Shown: one piece after another, positions 2,074 through 11,707 of the stretch
Position numbering within the stretch: the stretch's first letter is position 1
Layout: each line of letters begins with the position of its first letter
Assembly: GCA_031282145.1 (NCBI GenBank)
Contig: JAITEG010000260.1
Span: 1-37,540, forward strand
From: Spirochaetaceae bacterium
Lineage (GTDB): Bacteria > Spirochaetota > Spirochaetia > Treponematales > Breznakiellaceae
Direction: 5' to 3'
Length of the DNA stretch: 37,540 bases
The notes under the pieces: model-generated
Database searches by the model: none
What the model was told of the DNA's origin: nothing
The model's input: the letters and a program-made list of their open reading frames with translations, nothing else
Position numbers and translations under genes: made by a program

Positions 2074-3210
2074 ATGAAGCTGGCAAGAATACAAATACAT
2101 AAATATAAATCATGTTTAGAAACCGAATTAGCGTTACATGAGGACCTTACCGTTCTTATCGGGGTAAACGGAGCGGGTAAAACAAATATCATGACCGCCG
2201 TCAATTTACTGTCCCTTATGAGTCAAACCCATTTTACTATGTTCCCCGCCGATAAGGAGACGGAAGTCTCCTTTCTTTTTGTTGATCCGGATTGGTCGGT
2301 TGAATTACGGGTAAAGTCTTCCGGAGAATTGCGTCCTGAACTTTCCTGGCGTATGGCGGATATTCTTGATCAATATGTCCAGGTACCGCTTTATTTTGTT
2401 CAATCTGATGATGTTGAGAAGAACAGCCGGGCGGTAAAGAACTATTTTGATGTTTTAAATATGGATATCTCCACTGAAAAAATCACCCGCTTTACTTCCC
2501 GGATGCTCAAGACGAAAACCTTTATAGAATCTATCCGTTACTATTCGGCGGTCCAGTTTTCTGATGTAACCAAAGTAGTGCCGCACATACAGAAAGAAGC
2601 CAAAACGCCCCGCGAACAATTTTTGCAGGATCTGTTCAATATGAGAAACGACTTCCCTGAAAAATATACCCGATACCGGGAACTTGTCGGTCCTGAGGAA
2701 ATCCATCTGGTGGATGATATTTCATTTAAAGGTTATATGCAATTTTCTGAATATATGGACTCAGGAAATTCACCGGCGAAAAATGAAGATTCGGAGCTAT
2801 GGATGCCCCTGGTAACCATAAACAACAGGGAGCTAAGATTCAATCAGCTTTCAGAAGGTACGTTTAAAACCCTGGCTTTGCTGTTTTATATCACCGCCCA
2901 TGACGGCGGGTTGTTGCTCCTTGAGGAACCGGAAATAAGCGTACATTATAAATTGCTCAAGGATATAATCGAAATTATCAAAAACGAATCGGAAAACAAA
3001 CAGATCCTATGTTCGACCCACTCCGATTATGTATTGGATATGCTTGACCCGGAAATGGTTGTATTAGTGAAAAACGGCCGCAGGGGAACAAAAGCGGCAG
3101 CCCTGCCCTCCGCCCTTTCCGAGGAAAACGACCAAGGTTTGCGGACGTTTCTTGAATGTGAGGGTTCCTTGGGGGAATACTGGAAGGCGGGGAGCTTCGA
3201 TGAAGCATAG
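2074..3210 (+). CDS. AAA ATPase, OLD/RecF-like (probable anti-phage module)
   Basis: 378 residues. Walker A is GVNGAGKT (residues 30-37), an ABC-type signature LSEGT follows at 259-263, Walker B is LLLLEEPE (280-287), and a switch histidine lies in STHSD (H316). This order is that of SMC/RecF/OLD ATPases with a mid-chain insertion. The protein opens MKLARIQIHKYKS, the usual first strand of this class. It has no TOPRIM domain; that role seems taken by the next gene, which overlaps by 11 bases. The pair resembles two-gene ATPase plus TOPRIM nuclease defence systems (established for OLD and PARIS types; membership here is inferred). Base composition is more AT-rich than the neighbours, suggesting transfer. 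The ribosome site is weak (GGAAAT). Confidence 0.85.
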   Translation: MKLARIQIHKYKSCLETELALHEDLTVLIGVNGAGKTNIMTAVNLLSLMSQTHFTMFPADKETEVSFLFVDPDWSVELRVKSSGELRPELSWRMADILDQYVQVPLYFVQSDDVEKNSRAVKNYFDVLNMDISTEKITRFTSRMLKTKTFIESIRYYSAVQFSDVTKVVPHIQKEAKTPREQFLQDLFNMRNDFPEKYTRYRELVGPEEIHLVDDISFKGYMQFSEYMDSGNSPAKNEDSELWMPLVTINNRELRFNQLSEGTFKTLALLFYITAHDGGLLLLEEPEISVHYKLLKDIIEIIKNESENKQILCSTHSDYVLDMLDPEMVVLVKNGRRGTKAAALPSALSEENDQGLRTFLECEGSLGEYWKAGSFDEA

Positions 3211-3862: not shown

Positions 3863-4651
3863 TCACCAGCAGCAATACCCGCCGTCGATAATCAAATCCG
3901 CGCCGGTCATGTAGTCCGATGCCGGGGAAGCGAGGTACACAATAGCACCCTGAAGATCATCGGTGGAAGCCATCCGGCCCATGGGGATTTTTTCCAGCCA
4001 TTTGGGCAGCATAGTCTTACCCTCAGGGGTCTCCAGCAGCTTGTCCACCAGGGCGGTTTTGGTATAACCGGGGCTGATACTGTTCACCCGGATGTTCTTG
4101 GGGGCCCATTCGGCGGCAAGACTCCTCGTAAGGTGCAGCACCCCGGCTTTGGAGGCGTTATAGGCGCACTGGTTTTGGGGGGTATTCGAGATATGGGCCG
4201 ACATAGAGGCGGTATTGATGATCTTCCCATAACCCGCCTTGACCATTTCCCGGGCCTCCGCCTGGGCACAGAGGAACACCGCGTCCAGGTTCAGGGCGAG
4301 GATCTTCCGCCATTCGCCGAATTCCTGGATCAGGGCATCCCGCCACGCGCCCATACCGGCGTTATTCACCCCAATAGTAAGGCTCCCCCAGTGGCCGGCC
4401 ACGGTCTTTACCATCAGGGCCGCGTCATCGGGATTGGTCACATCCGCTTTAACCGCCATCGCCGTGATGCCCTTTTTTCCCAATGCCTCGGCGGTTTCTT
4501 CCGCCAGGGCCAGGTTAATATCGACCACCGCGATCTTCGCCCCCGCTTCTCCCAGGGCAAAACAATAGGCCTGCCCGATACCCTGGGCCCCGCCGGTCAC
4601 CAGGGCGGTTTTTCCCTCTAATTTAAAACGATCAAGAATTGTCTGTGCCAT
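3863..4651 (-). CDS. Short-chain dehydrogenase/reductase, probable sugar-alcohol (polyol) dehydrogenase
   Basis: 262 residues, classical SDR. The cofactor motif TGGAQGIG is at 19-26, D44 after the second strand points to NAD(H), NNAG is at 96-99, and the catalytic S149, Y164 and K168 are in place. The C-terminus [13 protein letters not shown] resembles sorbose reductase and arabinitol/xylulose-type SDRs. It is the last gene of a leftward polyol uptake operon, 70 bases after the zinc dehydrogenase, so it likely interconverts a polyol and a ketose in the cytoplasm. The exact substrate cannot be told from sequence. Confidence 0.85.
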
Positions 4652-4721: not shown

Positions 4722-5729
4722 TTAAAAGGACCCGTTCGGCAGTATTACCACCTTGAGGACCCCCTCAATTCCCTGTTCAATGATCTCTATCCCCTTGGAA
4801 AATTCCTCCAGGGGAAGCTGATGAGAAACCAGCGCTGAAACATCGATCCTGCCCGATTCCAGGAGACGCACCGCCTGGATTGAATTCCGTACCGAAGTAT
4901 AGGAGGTAAGGATAATAAGTCCCTTCTCAAATAGGGTAAAAGCGGGCAGAGTCACCTGGGCGTCCCCTTTGGGTACGCCGAACCAGAGCAGGGTCCCGCC
5001 CTTTCGGACATACCGCAAACTCTGTTCCATAAGAAAAGCGGACCCCGCCGCTTCCACCACCACATCATACCCTTCAAGGTCAAGCTCGTCCAGGGAAGTA
5101 CAAACCTGCCGGGCGCCCGAAGTCCGGGCCAGTTCCAGCCGGCTCTGATTTTTGTCCACCTGGGTAATATCGCTTGCGCCCTGGAGCTGAATCGCCTTGG
5201 AGAGGAGGAGGCCGATGGGACCCGCCCCCAAAATAGCCACCCGGTCCGCCATTTGTATCCGCGCCCGCTGGACCCCGTGGAGTACGCAGGACAGGGGTTC
5301 CACAAAGGCGCCGGAGAGGAAGGGCAGGGTACCGATATTAAACACCGCCTTCTCCGGGACCACCGCGTATTCGGCCATACCCCCCGGCAGGGTAACCCCC
5401 ACCCCGTCCCAATGCTCACAGAAATTCTGCCGGTTGTTGAGGCAGGCATGACAGTTGTCGCAGTTGATATTCGGCTCAATCGCCACATGATTCCCCGGCT
5501 TGAACCGGGTGACCTTTTTACCGGTCTCCACCACCACCCCGGAAAATTCATGCCCCGGAATAACCGGATAAGATCCCAGGTACTCTCCCCGGTAAATATG
5601 CACGTCCGTCCCGCATATTCCCGAGGCCTTAACCTGTATTTTCACCTCCAGATCCCCCACCGGCCGAACCGGGATCGTCTTAATGTGGGCATTCCCCGGT
5701 TTTTCAATAACCAGCGCTTTCATATCCAT
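4722..5729 (-). CDS. Zinc-dependent medium-chain alcohol dehydrogenase (sorbitol/threonine dehydrogenase-like)
   Basis: 335 residues. Catalytic zinc ligands are seen in CGTD (C39) and GHE (H60, E61). The structural zinc site is the four-cysteine lobe C90, C93, C96, C104. A Rossmann motif GAGPIG lies mid-chain, followed by an acidic QVDK region that favours NAD. A strong AGGAGG site precedes the ATG at 5729. Members oxidise polyols or secondary alcohols to ketones in the cytoplasm. It lies between an FGGY kinase (15-base gap) and an SDR, so it probably oxidises the imported polyol to the ketose that the kinase phosphorylates. Confidence 0.9.
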   Translation of the reverse strand: MDMKALVIEKPGNAHIKTIPVRPVGDLEVKIQVKASGICGTDVHIYRGEYLGSYPVIPGHEFSGVVVETGKKVTRFKPGNHVAIEPNINCDNCHACLNNRQNFCEHWDGVGVTLPGGMAEYAVVPEKAVFNIGTLPFLSGAFVEPLSCVLHGVQRARIQMADRVAILGAGPIGLLLSKAIQLQGASDITQVDKNQSRLELARTSGARQVCTSLDELDLEGYDVVVEAAGSAFLMEQSLRYVRKGGTLLWFGVPKGDAQVTLPAFTLFEKGLIILTSYTSVRNSIQAVRLLESGRIDVSALVSHQLPLEEFSKGIEIIEQGIEGVLKVVILPNGSF

Positions 5730-5744
5730 TATGCCGCCTCCTGT

Positions 5745-7262
5745 TTAATTTCGCATTTCCGCTAATCCGTCAAAGACCGGTTTAACCCGGCCGTAAATTT
5801 CCCGGTACAAGGCGCTGTACCCCGCATAGACGGCTGTTTTTTCGGGATCCGGCGTGAGCCCTTCCCCGTTCAAGGCTCCAACCCCCGGCGCCTCCTCCAA
5901 ATTCGGCCAAATTCCCGCCGCCACCCCCGCCGCCATAGCCGCACCCAGGGAAATGGCATGGGTCGGAAAGGGATGAACCCTCATGGGCTTGCCGATGACA
6001 TCACAGATGATCCGCCGCCAAAAGGTACTGCGAATTCCACCCCCCAAAAGGATAAGAGAATCAATAGGGGCGCCCATATCCCCATAAATATCGATTATTT
6101 CTTTAAGCCCAAAGGCGGTTCCCTCATACACCGAACGAAGCAGGGTTTTAGCGCTTGATGAAAGGGAAAGGCCGATAAACATCCCCCGGGCAGAGGCGTC
6201 CCAGTGAGGGGTCCGTTCCCCCATCAGATAGGGAAGGAAGATCACCCCCTCCGAACCGGGGGGAATTGCCTCCAAGTCCCCTTCAACCTGCCGGTAATCC
6301 ATAGCCTCCGATCCGGTTCGGAGCATACCCAAAGCCCAGTCAACGGCGATCCCGGCGCTTTGCAGGGTTCCACAGACGTTACAGGAACGGCCATCCAGAT
6401 CAAAGAAATTCTGTATCCGCCGCTTGGGGTCCGGCACCGGCGAGGGGAACAGCCGGGAAACCCAGGCACTGGACCCCAGGGAGATATAGGCCCCTCCTCC
6501 CACCAAAATGCCGCTGCCCCGGGTCGCGCAGGAGGCATCCCCGCCCCCCAGGGAAACGGGAATCCCCTGGGGTAAACCCAGGACCGCCGCCGCCTCTTTA
6601 CCGAGGACCCCGCCCGCTTCGATACTGCTCCCCACCGAGGGAAACCGGTCCCGGGGCAGACCCAAGGCGTCAATAATATCCCAGGACCAATCCCGTTTTT
6701 CCAGATTAAAGGCCCCCGTGAGGGACGCATCGGAGAAATCGGTGTACCCCAGGATCCCGGTGAGCTTAAAACGAAGGTAGTCCTTGGCGTTAAGAAACCA
6801 GGCGGTTCTTTTAAAAGCCTCTTCCTGTTCGTCCCTGAGCCAAAGGATCTTGGGCAGGGAGAGGTGTTCATCGGTACGGTTCGCCGTTTCCCGGTAGAGG
6901 TAATCCTCCCCCAAAAGGCCGCGGACCCGGGCGCTCTGAACACCGCTTCGGGAATCGGCGTGGATCAGCTCCGGGTAGGTGGGGTTCCCTTCGGCGTCCA
7001 CAGGCAGGCACCCATTCATATGTCCGGTAAGCCCCAGAGCCACTATTTCCCGGGAGGCCGCCTCAGGCCGGGCAAAGAGCTCCCGGGTACCCGTGACTGC
7101 GGCTGCCCAAAATTGTTCCGGATCCTGCTCCGCCCAGCCGGGCCGGGGAAATTCGGTCTTATAGGGCGCCGACACGGAAGCCGCCGGAAAGCCGGATAAA
7201 TCAAATACCGCGGACTTTACACTGGTCGTACCGATATCATAAACAAGGATCCCCTGGTTCAT
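5745..7262 (-). CDS. FGGY-family carbohydrate kinase (xylulokinase-like)
   Basis: 505 residues, normal for the family. The ATP-binding DIGTTSVK (9-16) opens the first lobe, GLTGHMNGCLPVD is the sugar-contact region, the GGGDASCA segment follows mid-chain, and ILLGGGIRS is the second FGGY signature near the C-terminus. These kinases phosphorylate ketoses or polyols such as xylulose with ATP. The stretch ending HADSRS differs from classical XylB (WNDGR-type), so I give no gene symbol. Its start overlaps the stop of the upstream permease by four bases, which indicates translational coupling. Confidence 0.88.
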   Translation of the reverse strand: MNQGILVYDIGTTSVKSAVFDLSGFPAASVSAPYKTEFPRPGWAEQDPEQFWAAAVTGTRELFARPEAASREIVALGLTGHMNGCLPVDAEGNPTYPELIHADSRSGVQSARVRGLLGEDYLYRETANRTDEHLSLPKILWLRDEQEEAFKRTAWFLNAKDYLRFKLTGILGYTDFSDASLTGAFNLEKRDWSWDIIDALGLPRDRFPSVGSSIEAGGVLGKEAAAVLGLPQGIPVSLGGGDASCATRGSGILVGGGAYISLGSSAWVSRLFPSPVPDPKRRIQNFFDLDGRSCNVCGTLQSAGIAVDWALGMLRTGSEAMDYRQVEGDLEAIPPGSEGVIFLPYLMGERTPHWDASARGMFIGLSLSSSAKTLLRSVYEGTAFGLKEIIDIYGDMGAPIDSLILLGGGIRSTFWRRIICDVIGKPMRVHPFPTHAISLGAAMAAGVAAGIWPNLEEAPGVGALNGEGLTPDPEKTAVYAGYSALYREIYGRVKPVFDGLAEMRN

Positions 7263-8122
7263 CCCTTTACCGCACCTGCAACCAGTCCTTTTACCAGGGC
7301 TTTTTGGGTCATCCAGCCGAGGATGATTGCGGGAAGCACCGAGATGGTCGACGATGCCGAGAGCTGGGCAACAAACTGCCCCTGCTGCTCCCGGAACCGG
7401 GCCATATACACCGGCAAGGTTGCGGTGGGATTACCGGTCAGGTTAAAGCCAAGAAAAAATTCATCCCAGATAAAAACCGCGACCAAAAGGCCCGCGGAGA
7501 TAATCCCGGTCCGCGCCAGGGGTATGGCTATCCGGGTCATCCGCTGGAATTTGGTACATCCGTCAATTTCAGCGGCCTCGAATATCTCCTTGGGCAGATC
7601 CGAAAAAAACGAATGCACCATCCACACCACAATGGGAATATGGAATCCCACATAGGCCGCCAGAAGGCCATAGGGGGTATTGATCAGACGGAATTGCTGG
7701 TACCAGGTAAAGAGGGGAATCAATACCGCCACCGGAGGCAGGAGGATCGTGGTGATAAACCACAAATAAATTTTCCCCGAGGACTCCCGTTTTTTAAGGC
7801 GTCCAAACACCAGGGCAAAAGCCGCGGGGATCCCCAACGCCAGGCTGATAAGGGTGCCAAAAAAAACCTGAAACAGGGAATTCCGCAGGTATTGGTGCAT
7901 GGTGGGATCGCTCAACACCTTTTGAAAGGTCACCAGAGTCGGCTTAAAAAAGATTGCCGGCATCACCGCCTGCTGTTCCGTTTTAAACCCGGAAAGGAAC
8001 ATATAGAGGATGGGAAAAAAATACAGGATGGCGATCGCATACACCACAACCGCCAGGAGCAATTTTTTCACAAAATTACGGATTTTTATGGTCCGTTGAA
8101 CACTTTCGATGGTTTTATGCAT
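7259..8122 (-). CDS. Carbohydrate ABC transporter permease, MalG type
   Basis: 287 residues with about six hydrophobic segments. The EAA loop EAAEIDGCTKFQRMTRIAIPLA, which docks to the ATPase, is in the last third. The C-terminus ends VAGAVKG. It is the second permease of the polyol importer, preceded by GGAGG seven bases before the ATG, 15 bases after the MalF-type gene, and overlapping the kinase start. It acts in the inner membrane. Confidence 0.93.
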   Translation of the reverse strand: MHKTIESVQRTIKIRNFVKKLLLAVVVYAIAILYFFPILYMFLSGFKTEQQAVMPAIFFKPTLVTFQKVLSDPTMHQYLRNSLFQVFFGTLISLALGIPAAFALVFGRLKKRESSGKIYLWFITTILLPPVAVLIPLFTWYQQFRLINTPYGLLAAYVGFHIPIVVWMVHSFFSDLPKEIFEAAEIDGCTKFQRMTRIAIPLARTGIISAGLLVAVFIWDEFFLGFNLTGNPTATLPVYMARFREQQGQFVAQLSASSTISVLPAIILGWMTQKALVKGLVAGAVKG

Positions 8123-8137: not shown

Positions 8138-9025
8138 TCACAGATATTTCGCGTTACGCCGTTCAATCGAACGGTAAAGCAGGTTAACCAAAACCAGGGT
8201 AAGGAAAACGGTCATAGTCGCCAAAGCCCCGGCTCTTCCGACATTATTCGCGCTGAAAATCTGCATATACACATAATAGGGCAGGGTGTAGGACCGGGTT
8301 CCCGGCCCTCCGGCGGTGGTCGTTAAAATCAGGCCGAACTCCTTAATTACAAACACCAAACCCAACATAATCGCAACCCGCAGGTGGTTCATAATAAGGG
8401 GCAGCTTAATCCGGAATATCCCTTGAATCCAATTAACCCCATCAATCCGGGTACAATCCAACAGGTCTTGATCCACCCCCTGTAATCCGGCGAGCAAAAC
8501 CAGGACGAAAAACGGCATCCACTGCCATGTGAATAGGGCAATAATGGTTGCCACGGGATGATAACTGATCATATCCACCGGAGTAAAGCCCAGGGCCTTG
8601 GAGATTACCCCATACCAGCCAAAGGTCGTATTAAAAATCGTGGTTTTCCAGATAACCCCGCTCGCGGTGGACATCACAAAAAAGGGCCCCAAAATAAGAG
8701 TCCGGGCGATATTAATCCCCGGCACATTATGATCAAACAAGAGGGCAAGCAGGAATCCCAAAAAAGAACATAACAGCAAGGTGACTCCGGTAATAAGAAT
8801 GGTTTGCCACAAAATACCGTAAAACGCCGGAAGTTCGGAAAAATTTTCAATCCGGAGAAAATAAAGATAATTTTCAAGTCCTGAGAAGGTCCGCGGGATA
8901 TCCGGTCTTGATAAATTCCAGCGCAGGGTGGAAAAAATAAGGGTCATTAAAAACGGAACCTGGGTCATAATTGCGACCACTACTATCGCGGGTACCAGAT
9001 ACCGGTAATCGGTTTTTCTTTTCAT
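8138..9025 (-). CDS. Carbohydrate ABC transporter permease, MalF type
   Basis: 295 residues with about six transmembrane segments. The EAA-like loop reads LLDCTRIDGVNWIQGIFRIKLP, with the conserved D-G pair. It pairs with the downstream MalG-type permease to form the membrane channel. Similarity in layout to SmoF/SmoG polyol transporters is inferred mainly from the binding protein and enzymes nearby. The start has a modest AAGGG site. Confidence 0.92.
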   Translation of the reverse strand: MKRKTDYRYLVPAIVVVAIMTQVPFLMTLIFSTLRWNLSRPDIPRTFSGLENYLYFLRIENFSELPAFYGILWQTILITGVTLLLCSFLGFLLALLFDHNVPGINIARTLILGPFFVMSTASGVIWKTTIFNTTFGWYGVISKALGFTPVDMISYHPVATIIALFTWQWMPFFVLVLLAGLQGVDQDLLDCTRIDGVNWIQGIFRIKLPLIMNHLRVAIMLGLVFVIKEFGLILTTTAGGPGTRSYTLPYYVYMQIFSANNVGRAGALATMTVFLTLVLVNLLYRSIERRNAKYL

Positions 9026-9116
9026 AATATAGCCCTTGTATTCCCCGGAACCCCGGGGAAAATTGAGTCGGGTTTAAACCCAGTAGTCTTTGAACCCAGT
9101 AATGTGGACACGAAAA

Positions 9117-9197
9117 ACCATCCGGCGTTTATAACCGGACGGTCCTGAGTATCTATAGGCAAACATCTCCGGAAAACCCGGCTGGGTCTCCGGAGAT
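9117..9197 (-). other. Stem-loops between binding-protein and permease genes
   Basis: An 8-bp perfect stem ATCTCCGG/CCGGAGAT (9165-9172 with 9190-9197) has an inner ACCC/GGGT stem. A second imperfect hairpin uses TCCGG/CCGGA (about 9117-9143). No T-run follows. Such structures after binding-protein genes commonly protect the upstream mRNA and lower permease expression (established for malE-malF); the role here is inferred. Confidence 0.6.
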
Positions 9198-9214
9198 ACT
9201 CGGAATACGGCGAT

Positions 9215-10587
9215 TTACTTTTTATAACCGCCGTCCCTCGCTACCGCTTCAAAAACCTGCTGGGTCCGCTGCAACGCCTGATCCAGGGTGATATTATCCA
9301 CCACATAATCGGCCAGATTCCGGGTCATAATATCCCCCGCGTCGGCAAATTCGGGAATAGCGATGTACTGCAAGCCCACATAGGGGACCGGGTCCAGACA
9401 GGGCTTGGTGAAGTCCATGCCTTCCAGGACTTTAAGGGTCGGCCCGGCATAGGGTACTGACGCATAGAAGGGCAGTTTGTACGTGGAGGACCGGGCCGCC
9501 GGTGGGATAGCCGAACCGGTCGGGTCATACTTATAGGCCAGCTGCACATAATCCTTGGAAGTCGCCCAGAGCATGAATTTAAAGGCCGCCTCCTTTTTGG
9601 CGGCGGTAGTTTTGGGGTTGATCCCCATAGTCCAGTTCCACAGCCACGCGGTGTTTTTCTGCAGCTTATCATGGGGCGCTGCCACATACCCGATCTTCCC
9701 TTTTACCTTGGAAGTGCTGTCTTCCAGCGGCGGGGCCAGGGAGGTCGCGTCATAGTAGATACCGCAATTGCCGGACGACATAAGCCCAATACACTCATTG
9801 TAGGTGTAGGACAGAATATCCGTCTGCCCCGCTTCCCGGAGGATCTTCTTGTACATTTCCCAGGCGTTCCGTTGTTCCGGCGTATTGACCGTGGCGTTCC
9901 ACTGCATATCAAAGAATTTACCGCCAAAAGCGTTTACCATGGTAACAAAGGGAGCGCCGCTCATACCCCAACCGGGGGTTCCGCGCATGGTGAAGCCCAC
10001 AATACCCCGGGCAGGATCGTGGATCTGCTTGGCCAGTTCATAGATCTGCTGCCAGGTGGGCTCATCGGGCATGGTGAGGCCCTTGGCCGCGAAGAGTTCC
10101 TTGTTATACATAATGAAGGAACTTTCCCCGTAGAAGGGGATCCCGTAGGCCTTGCCGTTGAGGGACACCGAGTCGAGCATCCCCTTGATGAGGTCCGGCC
10201 GATCATACCACGACTTTTCCTGGGCGGTGAGCTTGTCGAAGTAGGGTTCCAGGTTCTCGAGCCAGCCGTTCTTGGCCCAGGTCTGGGCTTCGTAGGGGCC
10301 GACGTAGAAGATGTCGTAGGTGGTGCCGCCGGTGGAGGCTTCGGTGGTGAGGCGCTGCCGGAGGTCGTTTTCAGGTAATACCGAAAGATTAACCGTGATG
10401 CCCGCCGCCTTGTACTCGGCTTGGGCGATCTTCGCCAATTGCTGGGAGATGTAGTTATTCGCCAGGGCAATATTTACCGTGACCGGAGAGCCCCCCCCCC
10501 CTGTTGGCCGCCGCCGGCCGCGAAAACCGGGGCGCCGAGAACCAGGAGCAATCCCAGAACCGCTAAAACCATGTTACTCTTTTTCAT
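9215..10587 (-). CDS. Polyol/sugar ABC solute-binding protein, disrupted by an 11-G tract (phase-variable or frameshifted)
   Basis: The start ATG at 10587 has GGAGG five bases upstream and encodes a signal peptide (MKKSNMVLAVLGLLLVLG, then APVFAAGGGQQ). Eleven G residues (10491-10501 on the plus strand) put this frame into a stop 18 bases later. The rest, from GSPVTVNIALANN through to 9215, continues in another frame. Twelve or nine G residues would restore one 457- or 456-residue protein. The mature part has an extracellular solute-binding fold, with DIFYVGPYEAQTWAKNGWLE resembling SmoE/MtlE-type polyol binders. First gene of the polyol operon. Real ON/OFF switching and a homopolymer sequencing error cannot be separated here. 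Confidence 0.85.
10491..10501 (-). repeat. Poly-G tract (11 G on the coding strand) inside the binding-protein gene
   Basis: Eleven consecutive C on the plus strand are eleven G in the mRNA, right after the signal-peptide codons. Tract length sets the reading frame: 9 or 12 is in frame, 11 is out. Poly-G tracts of this size slip during replication and drive phase variation in Treponema pallidum. Confidence 0.9.
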
Positions 10588-10641: not shown

Positions 10642-10671
10642 ATTATCTGTCGAGGAATTCGTAATTGTCAA
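10642..10671 (-). promoter_or_regulatory. Promoter of the polyol operon
   Basis: On the minus strand TTGACA (10666-10671) and GATAAT (10642-10647) are separated by 18 bases, 55 bases upstream of the binding-protein ATG. It lies downstream of the formamidase gene's presumed terminator, so the polyol operon has its own start. Confidence 0.72.
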
Positions 10672-10759: not shown

Positions 10760-11707
10760 CTACCCCAGAGCATCCGTCAAGGTTTTGTCCAGATAGGCGT
10801 AAGCGGTACAGGCCCCGGTGATCATTTGACAGATCTGAATTTTTATGCATTGTCCCGCCAGCATGTAGGCGTCCATAAAGGACAGGCGGTGGTCAACTTC
10901 TATCCGCTTGATCACGTCGTACACCGCGCCCCGGATAGCCGCCTCAATATTGTTCGGGACCGTACACACCGAGCCGATAAAACCGCCGCCGTCAATCTGG
11001 GGCAGATCAAAGTACCGGGGATCCCCTTGCTTGATCAACGCCGCCTGAAGGGTCACCACCCCGTCGGATTCGACAGCACACCCCAGGAGTTCGCCGTCCC
11101 CCTGTTTAGCGTGGAGGTCTCCCAGGGAGAGGAGCGCCCCCGGAACATTGACGGGCATCACCACGGTACTTCCCTTTTTGAGTTGGGGACAGTCTACATT
11201 CCCTACCATCTGTTTATTCGCTTCATAAGAAAGGATAGCCGTTTCTTTCATAGCCACACAGATAGTGCCGACAAAGGGTTCCGTGGAAACCTCAATGCGC
11301 CGGGAACCGATGGCAAGGGTAAAGGTATCCCCGGAAACATCGCAAAAACGGGTGTCCGGTGGAAAAACCTCCGGTACAAACCGGTTGGCAAAAAGCCCCT
11401 GTCCCGGCACATAGGTATAATACCCCTCGTTGCCGCTGTCGCCCAGGCGAATCTCCTCAATGGTTACCGCCAGCCGGTCCCCGATTTCGGCGCCTTCCAC
11501 ATATACCGGCCCGGTTACCGGGTTTGCCTGAACCTGCATCACCTCGTGGTGATCTTTAAACACTGGGCTATTATGGCTGAGGAACATATTGTCCGCCCGG
11601 ATGGTTTCCAGGCAAAAGGTTTCCCCCGGCGCAACCCTTAGCCGCGGCTCATTCCGGGCATCCACATAAAAATGGACATTTTCCCGCTCTCTGGTCAATT
11701 TCTTCAT
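10760..11707 (-). CDS. Acetamidase/formamidase family protein
   Basis: 315 residues, the normal family length. Recognisable blocks are SHNSPVFKDHHEV, then TGPVYVEGAEIGD, and MPVNVPGALLSLGDLHAKQG with DGELLG following. These are typical of the FmdA/AmdA fold that hydrolyses formamide or acetamide to ammonia and the acid in the cytoplasm. A GGAGGG site precedes the ATG. The gene lies downstream of tRNA-Leu on the same strand, probably co-transcribed, with a tRNA-linked element in between. The substrate is not decided by sequence; an ammonia-releasing role is the family expectation. Confidence 0.88.
   Translation of the reverse strand: MKKLTRERENVHFYVDARNEPRLRVAPGETFCLETIRADNMFLSHNSPVFKDHHEVMQVQANPVTGPVYVEGAEIGDRLAVTIEEIRLGDSGNEGYYTYVPGQGLFANRFVPEVFPPDTRFCDVSGDTFTLAIGSRRIEVSTEPFVGTICVAMKETAILSYEANKQMVGNVDCPQLKKGSTVVMPVNVPGALLSLGDLHAKQGDGELLGCAVESDGVVTLQAALIKQGDPRYFDLPQIDGGGFIGSVCTVPNNIEAAIRGAVYDVIKRIEVDHRLSFMDAYMLAGQCIKIQICQMITGACTAYAYLDKTLTDALG

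Follow-up and report, generated by a model that had tools for sequence, protein, structure and literature searches.

A poly-G tract at the signal-peptide junction of a polyol-type binding protein gene in a treponeme: a candidate translational switch

We report a homopolymer of eleven guanines between the signal peptide and the mature domain of a gene for an ABC-transporter substrate-binding protein (SBP) of the polyol (sorbitol) type. The tract puts the start codon out of frame with a protein body that is otherwise intact and conserved; tracts recur at exactly the same site in orthologs, and at the equivalent place in many other SBP genes, in some of them in frame and in some out of frame. On balance, we consider it probable, with considerable reservation, that the tract mutates at a high rate, as a simple-sequence repeat, and serves as a translational ON/OFF switch of this binding protein. 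The gene lies in a stretch of 37,540 nucleotides that was analysed as a whole and is called the window here (53% GC); it comes from a genome assembly of 3.04 Mb in 268 contigs. The source organism is not Treponema pallidum but belongs to a large family of other treponemes, and judging from the names of related metagenome records it probably lives in the insect gut.

Table 1. Coordinates of the SBP gene, its tract and the neighbouring polyol cluster in the window
Feature	Position	Strand	Basis or remark
G11 homopolymer (C11 on the plus strand)	10491..10501	-	where the SBP signal peptide meets the mature domain
SBP start codon (10585-10587) with the signal peptide and the Gly-rich linker MKKSNMVLAVLGLLLVLGAPVFAAGGGQ(Q)	10502..10587	-	sequence; orthologs with the same architecture
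Premature stop (codon 38) that ends the start-codon frame when the tract is G11	10474..10476	-	translation
Intact body of the sorbitol/polyol-type SBP (SBP_bac_1), 423 aa and stop codon, not in the frame of the start codon	9215..10486	-	
TTGACA-18-GATAAT resembling a promoter (11 of 12), immediately before the SBP gene	10642..10671	-	consensus match only
Inverted repeat CCGGTAACAGCCGG resembling an operator, lying after the promoter and before the start codon	10607..10620	-	by eye and scan
Gap from SBP to permease, folding into strong hairpins (z = -4.4), of which one resembles a terminator	9065..9218	-	folding
ABC transporter permease 1 (BPD_transp_1)	8138..9025	-	
ABC transporter permease 2 (BPD_transp_1)	7259..8122	-	
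FGGY-family carbohydrate kinase, xylulokinase-like	5745..7262	-	
Zinc-type medium-chain alcohol/polyol dehydrogenase	4722..5729	-	
Short-chain dehydrogenase	3863..4651	-	

The plus strand carries exactly eleven C at this site, so that the coding (minus) strand reads G11. The gene begins with an ATG at 10587, which is preceded by a GGAGG site and followed by a typical signal peptide, and with G11 the start-codon frame reads MKKSNMVLAVLGLLLVLGAPVFAAGGGQQGGGALRSR and ends at codon 38. The frame of the body contains no ATG, GTG or TTG between the preceding stop and the tract, its earliest listed start being a TTG at 10438. The tract thus occupies a frame-determining position within the SBP coding sequence and, judged by reading frame only, lengths divisible by three would join the frames of signal peptide and body. 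This bears out the first-pass annotation of this DNA, according to which eleven G after the signal peptide leave the binding protein out of frame and nine or twelve would restore it.

Analysis of the body (423 aa) assigned it to SBP_bac_1 (PF01547, E 2e-40, Pfam), and its best PDB match is 4RYA, a named sorbitol-binding protein (E 7.9e-84, residues 3-423). Polyol binding is predicted from the family, from this match and from the gene neighbours, and the earlier designation as a polyol-type binding protein can be retained on that basis. 4RYA matches the body over its full length; it is a protein structure only, unlike the tract-bearing SBP gene, and we know of no poly-G context for it. A second close polyol SBP was not found in the genome, the other matches listed being at most 32% identical and covering partial stretches. 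Orthologous SBPs of 72-80% identity occur in records labelled Synergistaceae, KSB3, Desulfobacterales and SAR324 (L017, L038 (a Synergistaceae MAG), L024, L028 and L029), which reflects either transfer or misbinned contigs.

Downstream of the SBP gene and on the same strand follow two permeases, the FGGY kinase, the zinc-type dehydrogenase and the short-chain dehydrogenase, all of them present and open, and this gene order is kept, wholly or partly, in most of 34 related loci. Since the start codon is separated from the upstream gene by a promoter-like site and an operator-like repeat, the SBP gene is probably the first of its transcript, in keeping with its initial description as the first gene of an operon, here a conserved cluster for transport and catabolism. 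CCGG-type repeats between promoter and start codon also precede the orthologous SBP genes L011, L012, L018, L020 and L034 and are perhaps the site of a LacI-type regulator. In the gap before the permeases, one hairpin is followed by UUUUU and could be an attenuator. An acetamidase/formamidase-like gene (window 10760-11707, same strand) lies upstream of the SBP gene, a place it keeps in L009-L013, and window 2074-3210 encodes an AAA ATPase with weak similarity, far below the respective cut-offs, to the defence ATPases MAD3 and PtuA.

Comparison with about 29 orthologs with readable 5' ends identified two that carry a tract at exactly the same site, namely L013 with G13, in frame, and L016 with G17, out of frame. 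Across three species the length at this site is therefore G11, G13 and G17, and the presence of in-frame and out-of-frame versions in related species agrees with the proposal that tract length sets the frame. The other orthologs (about 26/29) have no tract. In the tree, L016 groups with the tract-less L014 and L015, apart from the clade of the window, and hence the tract at the SBP site must have arisen at least twice independently.

The position behind the signal peptide was then surveyed across 200 genomes of the window's family with a pattern consisting of a ribosome site, ATGAARAR, N45-75 and G10. Tracts of G10 or more at 45-75 nt after the start codon were found in 28/200 genomes, vs 3/200 for a control pattern with the tract 200 nt deeper (245-275 nt; Fisher p = 2e-6). 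Five of the family matches lie at contig ends and are possibly artefacts or assembly breaks; when they are left out, the counts are 23 vs 3 (p = 5e-5). Outside the family but within the same order, 4/124 genomes gave matches. At least 19 of the tract genes inspected, including the window gene and its two orthologs, are SBPs by Pfam or homology, and most matched genes belong to SBPs of differing Pfam families (SBP_bac_1/8, Peripla_BP_4, SBP_bac_3 and SBP_bac_5), along with a DUF3502 protein; a DctP-type SBP with the tract inside its signal peptide was found separately. An imbalance between strands in the family tract counts was traced to the counting of overlapping matches and is not biological. 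A gene resembling a TonB-dependent receptor (L152:848-2809) has an in-frame G14 behind its signal peptide.

The alternative that survives best, although we regard it as unlikely, is neutral slippage, in which a Gly-rich linker tolerates changes in length, GGG is favoured and mutation pressure alone produces the tracts, so that frameshifts would be transient deleterious mutations and not a selected switch. GGG is indeed the favoured Gly codon in the window (43% of Gly codons), and by codon use the chance of G11 or more in a four-Gly linker is about 0.08. Moreover, C10 tracts occur at the same distance behind start codons in 16/200 family genomes, many of them in lipoprotein-like genes; a Gly-specific effect is thus not supported, and the position may simply tolerate homopolymers, an observation equally compatible with a tolerant linker and with a switch. 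Together with the scarcity of the tract among orthologs, these facts speak for neutral slippage and we count them against the switch, as we do the intact state of mutS and mutL, by which mismatch-repair loss is rejected as the cause of tract slippage and slippage would not be raised in this way. Length alone carries no weight either, as dinucleotide-preserving shuffles gave more G8 runs than the window contains and 20 tracts of at least G10 occur in the genome; weight was therefore placed on position, on orthologs and other SBPs, and on frame. Here neutral slippage fares less well. Among 28 SBP genes with a clear signal peptide, picked by body homology regardless of tracts, the G run in the first 180 bases never exceeds five, which weakens the view of the tract as an ordinary result of Gly-rich linkers and makes the runs of G10-17 look like a separate class. 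Furthermore, the frame is broken in about half of the SBPs with a tract despite intact bodies (10 of the 22 SBP-type genes inspected, against 12 in frame; the in-frame L153 and L168 gave no Pfam hit and were counted from signal peptide and size).

A further explanation, to which we give slightly less credence, is that the tract length was miscalled in metagenome assembly and that the cells carry the gene in frame. The length of a homopolymer is difficult to call, mixed populations yield an arbitrary consensus, the assembly with its many contigs is probably short-read, and the matches at contig ends illustrate that some poly-G tracts may be artefactual. The G11 tract, however, is interior to its contig, with ortholog-like sequence on either side, and all ten other readable coding tracts of G10-12 from this assembly keep their genes in frame (10/10), which argues against a high general rate of length miscalls; among the readable coding tracts of the genome, only that of the SBP breaks its gene. 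Compared with these ten (10:0), the SBP-type genes without the window gene split 12:9 (one-sided p = 0.015), and their out-of-frame tracts are rarer than the two thirds expected without constraint (p = 0.03). A mixture of ON and OFF with an excess of ON is expected if each species contributes one sample of a switching population; miscalled lengths could also yield it. Miscalling of a fixed tract would nevertheless leave the recurrence of long tracts at this position unexplained.

Tracts of other kinds were encountered as well. Whereas the G10-12 coding tracts of the window's own genome are in frame, its tracts of G14-G20+ (L043, L047, L050, L052 and L053) are found beyond long reading frames or at their margins. 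Two tracts outside long reading frames, L046 (G000:C32, G12) and L047 (G000:C57, G20), share the context CTTGCT[G]n(T)AAAAAATCA, and the L046 tract is preceded by a sigma-54-like TTGGCACGGTTCTTGCT, which would place it at a transcription start. Two family genomes, G017 and G012, have more than 50 tracts of exactly G11 each, compared with 0-5 in most relatives; in 20 stretches read from G017 (L226-L245), many tracts are outside long reading frames, and several lie in a repeated element, a few bases before TTGACAG.

That the SBP gene is a young pseudogene, inactivated by a recent and fixed mutation, is very improbable. The frame is broken in the consensus, as this explanation demands, but the body contains no further stop or frameshift, its dN/dS against nine orthologs is 0.03-0.11 and falls inside the range of ortholog-ortholog comparisons, the operon genes are present and open, and the same state is found in L016 and other SBPs. 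Pseudogene decay is ruled out by the dN/dS values and the intact body, and the gene has therefore been functional until very recently. Polymerases are generally known to slip on long homopolymers, and transcriptional or ribosomal slippage on the G run might restore the frame in a fraction of the products and keep the gene always partly on, yet we give this hardly any credence.

We therefore return to the translational switch as our preferred reading. Slipped-strand mispairing at replication would add or remove G's; whenever the length is divisible by three, the signal peptide would be read through into the body and a secreted binding protein would result, while other lengths would yield a 37-residue peptide and leave the binding protein absent. 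The sequenced consensus of G11 would represent the OFF state. The end of translation at codon 38 would leave more than 1 kb of untranslated message, which, together with the hairpin-rich gap before the permeases, may lower downstream expression, a polar effect that we infer. Slippage would take place within the population and would be reversible, OFF cells would lose polyol uptake, and the selective benefit would presumably be bet-hedging over nutrients.

Phase variation has mostly been described for surface antigens of pathogens. More tentatively, we suggest that in this treponeme family poly-G tracts just behind signal peptides may repeatedly have appeared in nutrient-binding proteins from unrelated families, allowing the cells of a population to express different subsets of uptake systems, heritable and reversible. 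Treponemes not known to be pathogens would then possess a nutrient-uptake phasome; a description of repeated poly-G use behind signal peptides of ABC-transporter SBPs in this family was not found in the literature searched. If the SBP genes of these treponemes do switch alike, nutrient bet-hedging would be written in the genome and could be tested from existing metagenome reads. Automatic annotation may, in that case, call live, switchable transport genes pseudogenes.

Our literature search found no description uniting phase variation, a substrate-binding protein and poly-G, and for phase variation with termite gut and Treponema it retrieved only a mycoplasma study, coverage in both cases being thin for subscription journals. 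As the first-pass annotation had stated, poly-G phase variation is established in T. pallidum, where tract length acts on promoters and varies within isolates (tprE/G/J, tp0126 and tprL; PMC7864442). This system, too, belongs to a spirochaete, and its poly-G lengths are comparable (7-11 for the tprL tract; PMC7864442); the tracts described there act on promoters of putative outer-membrane proteins, whereas the SBP tract lies in coding sequence. The accompanying view that such switching is mostly limited to antigens and promoters and does not extend to nutrient uptake is not supported, given two precedents from nutrient uptake or catabolism. In Neisseria, the haemoglobin receptors HmbR and HpuAB are subject to poly-G phase variation that affects nutrient (iron) uptake (PMC3786947), and as in the SBP gene the tract of hmbR/hpuA is inside the open reading frame and acts by an ON/OFF frameshift; HpuA is moreover the lipoprotein of a two-component receptor, which we count as a likeness to the SBP (PMC3786947). 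HmbR and HpuAB, however, are surface iron receptors of a pathogen with measured length variants, whereas the protein described here is a periplasmic ABC-transporter SBP for a polyol, from another kind of bacterium. In Mycobacterium tuberculosis, a frameshift in a G7 tract of glpK turns off glycerol use and has been described as reversible high-frequency variation (PMC6667613), which resembles the present case in that a G homopolymer is frameshifted in a polyol-related gene; unlike the SBP, GlpK is a cytoplasmic kinase, its tract is shorter and the variation was seen in association with drug resistance. Hence, with poly-G precedents in T. pallidum, Neisseria and M. tuberculosis, the mechanism that we propose for the SBP gene is of a known kind.
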